Shown here piece by piece: positions 57,684-58,829 of a stretch of DNA of 64,000 bases. The position numbers and the translations under genes are program-made. Source of the DNA: an uncultured Alphaproteobacteria bacterium (GTDB taxonomy: Bacteria > Pseudomonadota > Alphaproteobacteria > RF32 > CAG-239); the NCBI GenBank assembly GCA_944391495.1, contig CALXTU010000001.1, forward strand, positions 247,981-311,980, read 5' to 3'. How positions within the stretch are numbered: the stretch's first letter is position 1; each line of letters begins with the position of its first letter. Under the pieces are notes generated by a model, which saw only the letters and a list, made by a program, of their open reading frames with translations, was not told where the DNA came from and searched no databases.

Positions 57684-57712
57684 TTGACAAAAAATAAAAG
57701 CATTGGAATAAT
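57684..57712 (+). promoter_or_regulatory. Near-consensus sigma-70 promoter of the first small basic protein
   Basis: TTGACA (57684-57689), a 17-bp spacer and AATAAT (57707-57712). The leader contains a GGCGCC-GGC-GGCGCC palindrome (57733-57747). Confidence 0.7.
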
Positions 57713-57760
57713 GGACAAAAATTTTGACAAGGCGCCGGCGGCGCCGCTGACGGAGAATTG

Positions 57761-58264
57761 ATGATGGCTTCACAAGAAGAAAACGCTGCTGGAAAAAAGA
57801 CGCCCAAACCTTCATTTAAAGAAGCGGGCGGTGTACACGGCTGGCTTTTGAAAAAAGCCAAAACTTTTATGTGGGATGCCGCGTCAAATACGTTTATTCT
57901 GCCTAAAGGCGTTGTTCTGACCAAAGAGGAAAAAGAAGCTCTGGAAGAGGTTATCGGTGCGATTAAGGAAGAGGCGGTTGAGGTTGACAAGCGCCGGCAG
58001 CTGCAAATGGCCGCCGCACAACGAGCAGGCATCAAATTTAAAGCCAACGTGGTTAAAGGATATGACCTGCTGTTGAGCGGTTCGTACCGTGAGCTGACGG
58101 GGGTACTGGCTCATAAAATACATAATAAACTGCAAGGAATGCTTCAGGTCAATAACCGCTTTTTAAACGGGGTATGGAAGGTGATTTCCGGGGCGCTGAA
58201 TTTACAGCAGAAAGAAGAGCGGAATAAAACCTTGATTATGCCGCGCGGGCGTGACGGCCGTTAA
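57761..58264 (+). CDS. Small basic protein, unknown (first of pair)
   Basis: 167 residues from ATG 57761 (GGAG five bases upstream; ATG 57764 is equally good). No signal peptide. Central helices with alternating charge (TKEEKEALEEVIGAIKEEAVEVDKRR) and an amphipathic second half (VVKGYDLLLSGSYRELTGVL). The C terminus ends RGRDGR. Its promoter is near consensus, so the protein is likely abundant. It resembles no family I know. The next gene has a similar size, charge and C terminus. Confidence 0.6.
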   Translation: MMASQEENAAGKKTPKPSFKEAGGVHGWLLKKAKTFMWDAASNTFILPKGVVLTKEEKEALEEVIGAIKEEAVEVDKRRQLQMAAAQRAGIKFKANVVKGYDLLLSGSYRELTGVLAHKIHNKLQGMLQVNNRFLNGVWKVISGALNLQQKEERNKTLIMPRGRDGR

Positions 58265-58266
58265 AA

Positions 58267-58295
58267 TTGACAAGCTTGTAAAAAATTGCTATAAT
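58267..58295 (+). promoter_or_regulatory. Consensus sigma-70 promoter of the second small basic protein
   Basis: TTGACA (58267-58272), a 17-bp spacer and TATAAT (58290-58295): a perfect consensus, and the strongest promoter seen in the window. Confidence 0.8.
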
Positions 58296-58327
58296 AGACA
58301 AAATGGCAATTATCGGGGAGAACGGTA

Positions 58328-58786
58328 ATGAGTGAAGAAAAGAAAACCGTTAGTTCTTTAAGACAGGGATGGAAGTCTTTAGGCAAGGCTGTGGCGCAAG
58401 ATGTAACCATGACTTTAAAACAAGCCAAAGAGGGTACCTGTTTTCTTTTTGTCCGGCAGGTGAAAGATTTGTATAAAGCCGGTAAGCTTATTGGCAAAGG
58501 AAAATTTCGTGAATTGCGTGATCGGGCGGCTTTGCGGGTGCATGATAATTTGTTGGCGCTCGGTGATAAAACACAGTCACAGGTAAAGGCAGCCAATAAG
58601 CGGATAGAAGAACGTCTTGGCATTGAGAACAGGGGCAGAAGGCCGGGAGTTGTTGCCAGAGCGTATGGCAAGCCGATAAGAGATATTCGCCGGATGTTTG
58701 ACCGGTTGCGCGGACGAGGCAATAATCAGGCTGTTCCGGTTGCGGTGCGTTCGACAGATCGGTCGCGAGGTAACGACGGCAGGTGA
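58328..58786 (+). CDS. Small highly basic protein, unknown (second of pair)
   Basis: 152 residues, Lys/Arg-rich, no signal peptide. Helical N-terminal half (VSSLRQGWKSLGKAVAQDV, FVRQVKDLYKAGKLIGKG); the second half is arginine-rich (RRPGVVARAYGKPIRDIRR, DRLRGRG) and ends RGNDGR. Nucleic-acid binding is plausible from composition but unproven. GGGGAGAACGGTA precedes the ATG. It is followed by the terminator shared with typA. It has its own perfect promoter in addition to any read-through from the first gene. Confidence 0.6.
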   Translation: MSEEKKTVSSLRQGWKSLGKAVAQDVTMTLKQAKEGTCFLFVRQVKDLYKAGKLIGKGKFRELRDRAALRVHDNLLALGDKTQSQVKAANKRIEERLGIENRGRRPGVVARAYGKPIRDIRRMFDRLRGRGNNQAVPVAVRSTDRSRGNDGR

Positions 58787-58799
58787 TGCATTTTGTAGA

Positions 58800-58829
58800 A
58801 AAAAAGCCCCGGTTTCCGGGGCTTTTTTT
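58800..58829. terminator. Bidirectional terminator between the small basic gene and typA
   Basis: AAAAAGCCCCGG-TTT-CCGGGGCTTTTTTT, a perfect stem with A and T runs on both sides. Confidence 0.9.

Follow-up and report, generated by a model that had tools for sequence, protein, structure and literature searches.

Why should two adjacent small genes beside murJ each carry a promoter of its own close to consensus, and what do they encode? The window (the whole 64-kb stretch of DNA analysed) was described in an earlier note, which reported here two small, basic, helical proteins with similar tails (P1 and P2) belonging to no recognised family, and suggested that they are abundant, perhaps nucleic-acid-binding, or that they are copies of one ancestral gene. 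We believe that P1 and P2 probably represent a duplicated branch of a murJ-divergent locus, which would be strongly transcribed and would encode cationic intracellular proteins. The recurrence of this promoter and gene position throughout the order extends the earlier description beyond its coordinates. The features are collected in Table 1.

Table 1. Positions of the P1/P2 genes, their promoters and their neighbours in the window
Feature	Start	End	Strand	Basis
murJ (lipid II flippase family), divergent from P1; the neighbour that stays constant at this locus	55976	57556	-	MurJ N-terminus search; Pfam PF03023 in relatives
P1 promoter element: TTGACA (57684-57689), 17-nt spacer, AATAAT (57707-57712), then GGACAAA; discriminator opens with two G	57684	57719	+	Read from sequence
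P1, 167 aa (166 if the ATG at 57764 is the start), basic, tail RGRDGR	57761	58264	+	
P1 core common to P2, residues 90-128	58028	58144	+	hhalign E 1.3e-8; core profile
P2 promoter element: TTGACA (58267-58272), 17-nt spacer, TATAAT (58290-58295) with TG extended -10, then AGACAAA	58267	58302	+	Hexamers read from sequence
P2, 152 aa, very basic, tail RGNDGR; lacks the N-terminal region of about 150 aa of four relatives	58328	58786	+	
P2 core common to P1, residues 41-79	58448	58564	+	hhalign
Intrinsic terminator-like hairpin (18 pairs) 3' of P2, extending into the end of the convergent gene	58795	58833	+	
GTPase gene that we take, from its sequence, to be of the typA type; convergent neighbour, less constant than murJ	58830	60650	-	

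Both promoters are present in the sequence as the earlier note gave them. The gap between P1 and P2 is 63 nt and holds the P2 promoter; since its -35 hexamer starts 2 nt past the P1 stop codon, each gene has a separate promoter. Just three sites in the window match 11 or more of the 12 hexamer bases with 16-18 nt between the hexamers; of these, only the P1 and P2 promoters have a spacer of 17 nt. Perfect hexamers by themselves are rare in the genome and not decisive (three occurrences of TTGACA-N16-18-TATAAT versus one for the reversed-pattern control). When the shared downstream GACAA is included, the promoter pattern occurs twice in the genome, both times at P1/P2, and the control gives no match. 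The leader of P1 contains a local hairpin.

The proteins are small and basic, as described: the pI and net charge are 9.92 and +11 for P1 and 11.20 and +21 for P2, and a pI above 9.5 is found in 9 of the 55 window ORFs. The word helical, which belonged to the same description, can be kept only as a suggestion of AlphaFold2 models of low confidence (pLDDT 46.7 for P1 and 50.1 for P2; both models are poor). The two tails are exactly as reported, and a codon-level pattern for an ending of the RG-x-DGR type has four sites in the genome, two of which are P1 and P2.

The profile comparison proposed in the earlier note as a check demonstrates that the P1 and P2 families are homologous; 39 columns are aligned (E value as in Table 1), and P1 is collinear with the long-form P2 orthologues over 86 columns (E 4.4e-7). 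The common core reads L..G.[FY]REL....A..[IV]H.NL. This supports the duplication of an ancestral gene: P1 and P2 are tandem paralogues, the promoter having been duplicated together with the gene.

Homologues extend beyond a single strain to several species of one genus. Among the 94 genomes searched (own included), P1 has relatives in nine others, all of the same genus, and P2 in seven others of that genus; a P2 match in G062 is considered chance, the frame encoding an ABC-transporter ATPase. The P1 profile scan of genome contigs gave nine loci, all in metagenome bins named uncultured Alphaproteobacteria or proteobacteria; the genome records examined are metagenome assemblies, and their order is presumably the gut order RF32 of GTDB. 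The P2-type protein has 284-331 aa in four relatives owing to an extra N-terminal part; the window P2 is a short form, as is the protein of three other relatives. G029 has a single gene of the long-P2 type at the P1 position, ending in RGRDGR. In L027 (G022), the P2 position after P1 is occupied by a shortened, strongly diverged ORF of 93 aa that ends in TRGGR, with the element still upstream.

The statement that no known family is represented is borne out by the libraries consulted: P1 and P2 gave nothing above the cut-off in Pfam, NCBIfam, PHROGs and PADLOC, ten relatives likewise had no match above the cut-off in described-family searches, and the PDB sequences, searched with the P1 alignment, gave no match at E up to 1. 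The Pfam family fn3_4, found for P2 at E 0.008, is under its cut-off and was taken as chance. A viral origin was set aside, as neither P1 relatives nor the exact consensus element occur in the viral contigs. The available parts of the literature on murJ with divergent small proteins and on RF32-type rumen genomes do not contain the locus.

The promoters of P1 and P2 are part of a near-invariant element (TTGACAAAA...TGnGATAATAGACAAAA). The pattern TTGACA-N16-18-ATAATNGACAA is found in 36 of 94 relatives, namely in 35 of the 54 family genomes (own included), in the one genome of the other family of the order, and in none of the 39 genomes sampled elsewhere in the class. Across the order, 80 of the 153 genomes, from 12 of its 17 genera, contain the strict element with N16-19, and the reversed control gives one match. 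A tally over all 80 genomes places 84 of the 87 element matches at the murJ-divergent locus, some as a second unit, like P2. The remaining three are off-locus (G024:C9, G176:C22 and G128); the first two, which have one extra spacer base and lack murJ, are considered chance matches. In G128 (L159) both the element and the gene are present and murJ is not adjoining, which may indicate a moved autonomous unit or a rearranged neighbour.

The looser pattern TTGACA-N21-27-GACAAA, which defines the locus when divergent from murJ, precedes P1 directly and P2 as a second unit. It occurs in 34 of 38 loci selected by murJ alone, and in 13 of 19 further loci from genomes negative for the strict pattern. 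Conservation is high also in columns that the looser pattern does not set: the TG of the extended -10 (0.99 and 1.0, genus-weighted, in the class with a 17-nt spacer) and the last A of GACAAAA (1.0). In genera whose spacer is 18 nt long, the -10 hexamer has drifted but the GACAAAA downstream of it has stayed the same. The window promoters deviate from the family consensus, P1 in having AATAAT and P2 in the absence of the A-run after the -35 hexamer. The element lies 91-148 nt from the murJ start in the loci read.

In genus g4 the element is missing from all six loci read (L074, L075, L203-L206), where a glycosyltransferase-like gene takes the place of the small gene divergent from murJ. L167 (G138), from another genus, contains two tandem units of element plus ORF, apparently an independent duplication. 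Further downstream, L066, L067 and L072 encode pilin-like proteins with a conserved N-terminus of the SMIEMLGVLAIIGVLSVG type, which in some genera are encoded close to the locus. The murJ gene is kept in 61 of the 67 other genomes negative for the strict pattern. G001, G007, G010, G011, G021 and G047 have no Pfam PF03023 MurJ match, even though the listed completeness of G007 and G011 is 100%; the gene could be truly lost or fall into a gap of the assembly. The joint absence of murJ and the element from these six genomes is striking at first sight; since it may reflect assembly gaps, and since most of the other negative genomes keep murJ, it was not used as evidence.

The protein behind the element was studied in 111 loci, L181 and L187 having been excluded beforehand as off-locus. 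Eleven were dropped, having no element or no murJ, and 100 ORFs remained, of which one is open at a contig end, so that 99 closed ORFs were counted. The automatic choice of ORFs is imperfect (L155, 77 aa, is probably in a wrong frame, and the starts of L062 and L057 are uncertain); the totals include these three. Between the element and the ORF start there are 19-68 nt, and the ORF encodes 53-284 aa (median 113). The pI exceeds 8 in 82 of the 99 proteins, and the last residue is Arg in 50 of the 99, 11 of them from P1-type loci, versus 7 of 55 window ORFs. The ORFs diverge quickly between genera and are nonetheless under purifying selection: dN/dS is 0.03-0.28 in 26 of 27 close pairs, which were hand-picked and have saturated dS in several cases; it is 0.03-0.11 in the P1 pairs, and the exception is L050/L052 (0.60).

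Proteins of distant genera mostly defy convincing alignment and are assigned to the locus by position, promoter and weak motifs. The motif [LIVMY][AS]xG occurs in 63 of 89 non-P1 proteins versus 24.6 +/- 4.3 for shuffled sequences. With the core profile of P1/P2, 11 other murJ-divergent proteins are detected at E<0.1 (g1, g10, g56 and g15), as against 0-1 matches at this level in each of 20 shuffled sets. The matches beyond the P1 clade are L044 (E 8e-6), L041 (E 4e-5), L048 (E 0.002), L173 (E 0.007) and others weaker; G013:C52 and G027:C70 give weak matches at E 0.003-0.004. Consequently, the P1 clade is related in sequence to members outside it, the most distant ones lying beyond the reach of the profile. 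The recurrence of the core and tail within a hypervariable body suggests that short motifs carry the function.

One could regard these proteins as fast-evolving effectors or surface-conflict proteins with the Arg-ended tail acting as a sorting or secretion signal. Their fast divergence with indels would agree with this, as would the frequency of C-terminal Arg (50 of 99) and of Arg among the last three residues (74 of 99); however, dN/dS in the close pairs is well below 1, and we consider this explanation unlikely.

In many relatives, the stop codon is directly followed by the reverse complement of the ribosome-binding site (SD) of the same gene. Two of the 3' UTRs were too short, leaving 97, or 86 after removal of the 11 P1-type loci. 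Complementary runs scoring at least 9 were found in 41 of these 86 loci versus 4 of 54 window ORFs, and all 41 cover the SD core. The two partners co-vary: TTTATGGAGAA stands with TTCTCCATAAA in g1, TAAGGAGAAC with GTTCTCCTTA in g12, GAGAAGTTTT with AAAACTTCTC in g8 and g56, GGAGAAGATTT with AAATCTTCTTC in g10, and ACGGAGAAATT with GATTTCTCCGT in L056. Compensatory changes between genera can be seen, for example, in L053, L160 and L056. Own pairs have a mean of -13.6 versus -11.5 kcal/mol for mismatched ones (n=97, Wilcoxon p 8.6e-5, a test that ignores shared ancestry); by a test with the same limitation, only 28 of the 86 loci beat 95% of cross-genus mismatches. At the window locus the complementarity is absent, the best runs scoring 4-6.5, and so it is in most of g9, g14 and g3; therefore, pairing is not a defining trait of the locus. 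The inverted repeats that flank the ORF in relatives could suggest an invertible element, an interpretation set aside by inspection only.

This complementarity with its compensatory changes, as well as a promoter conserved far better than the protein, makes it tempting to propose a dual-function or regulatory RNA that is driven by the element and acts through its UTRs, the ORF being secondary. We presume that such a mechanism is improbable, because the ORFs are under purifying selection in all but one of the pairs compared, the paired segments are short and missing in the window, and the 17 matches in Rfam are all below the gathering scores, 16 of them falling on the terminator region.

A small DNA-binding autoregulator of the intergenic region shared by murJ and P1 would explain a basic protein encoded divergently from murJ, the position of the element 91-148 nt from the murJ start, and the direct repeat T[TA]GACAAA inside the element. 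The repeat, however, coincides with the -35 hexamer and the discriminator, and its spacing shifts by one. Moreover, the combination of a near-invariant element with a hypervariable protein is the reverse of what co-evolution of operator and repressor would produce, which makes an autorepressor of the murJ region less likely; we rate the proposal as rather improbable. Finally, a type I toxin-antitoxin-like module, in which fold-back of the mRNA holds off translation of a toxin, is very unlikely: the apparently strong promoter, short ORF, tandem copies and pairing of the SD with the 3' UTR in relatives are in its favour, but the proteins of the family are cationic and not short hydrophobic peptides (P1 and P2, with 167 and 152 aa and charges of +11 and +21, are clearly not), the chromosomal site is fixed, the window has no pairing, PADLOC is negative, and promoter-like sites on the minus strand are weak (9 of 12 matches at most).

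The SD is sequestered in some type I toxin mRNAs, such as hok. The locus resembles another of them, aapA3 of Helicobacter pylori as presented in the available part of PMC6733600, in that the ORF is short and pairing can make its SD inaccessible; it differs in the longer, cationic proteins, in the fixed site linked to murJ, and in that no antisense RNA was seen. The icaR mRNA of Staphylococcus aureus, with its 5'-3' UTR pairing (PMC3868564, available in part), is similar in that the 3' UTR of many relatives complements the SD region of its own mRNA. Unlike icaR, the window locus has no pairing, the complementarity is here a feature read from the sequence, and the proteins have no known relation to IcaR.

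We return to P1 and P2 as the duplicated branch of a murJ-divergent locus. Their ancestor would have been one transcription unit divergent from murJ in nearly every examined lineage of the order. Each copy has its own form of a near-invariant promoter of the sigma-70 type with a consensus -35, a 17-nt spacer, a near-consensus -10 and a G at about -5, to which most of the family add a TGn extended -10. Such anatomy resembles that of lambda PR-type promoters with long-lived open complexes, and a G two bases after the -10 (in the discriminator, about -5) stabilises open complexes, according to the part of PMC4496709 available; unlike that class, the element is one specific sequence at one locus, conserved across the order. 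The P1 and P2 promoters should thus form strong, long-lived open complexes and provide constitutively high, factor-independent transcription. The abundance proposed in the earlier note is plausible, considering the apparently strong conserved promoter. The product would be a small cationic intracellular protein, probably helical or disordered, in which a short core is conserved and the tail ends in Arg. In many relatives, pairing between the 3' UTR and the SD region probably holds down the translation of this protein; the P1/P2 branch lacks such pairing and has the unit in duplicate.

As to the molecular role, binding of nucleic acid or the ribosome is our leading guess, although a tentative one, because it fits the charge and the presumed abundance. 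Small basic nucleoid- or ribosome-associated proteins, for example, histone H1-like ones, are the natural comparison: P1 and P2 are likewise small, Lys/Arg-rich and presumably abundant; they differ in having no sequence match in the libraries searched and in possessing their own core motif and Arg-ended tail.

It is possible, though we would not insist on it, that selection at this order-wide, usually single-copy locus fixes the promoter, the murJ-divergent position, the Arg-ended tail and often the SD/3'-UTR lock, while the body of the protein diversifies. Dosage, core and tail might then outweigh the rest of the sequence, as in a highly expressed cationic scaffold or conflict protein, a further point that we offer with reserve.

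Conservation usually follows the opposite pattern: here a near-identical promoter, at one locus per genome throughout the order, precedes a protein barely alignable from one genus to another. If the promoter is indeed fixed and the protein body free, the locus would be of a kind that the available parts of the literature searched do not describe for bacteria. The element points to a gene retained, and probably strongly expressed, by these small-genome bacteria and absent from the family libraries searched. Bacterial 5'-3' UTR control could be studied comparatively through the SD/3'-UTR complementarity and its compensatory changes, a natural test case in which the duplicated branch in the window offers a lineage without such complementarity.
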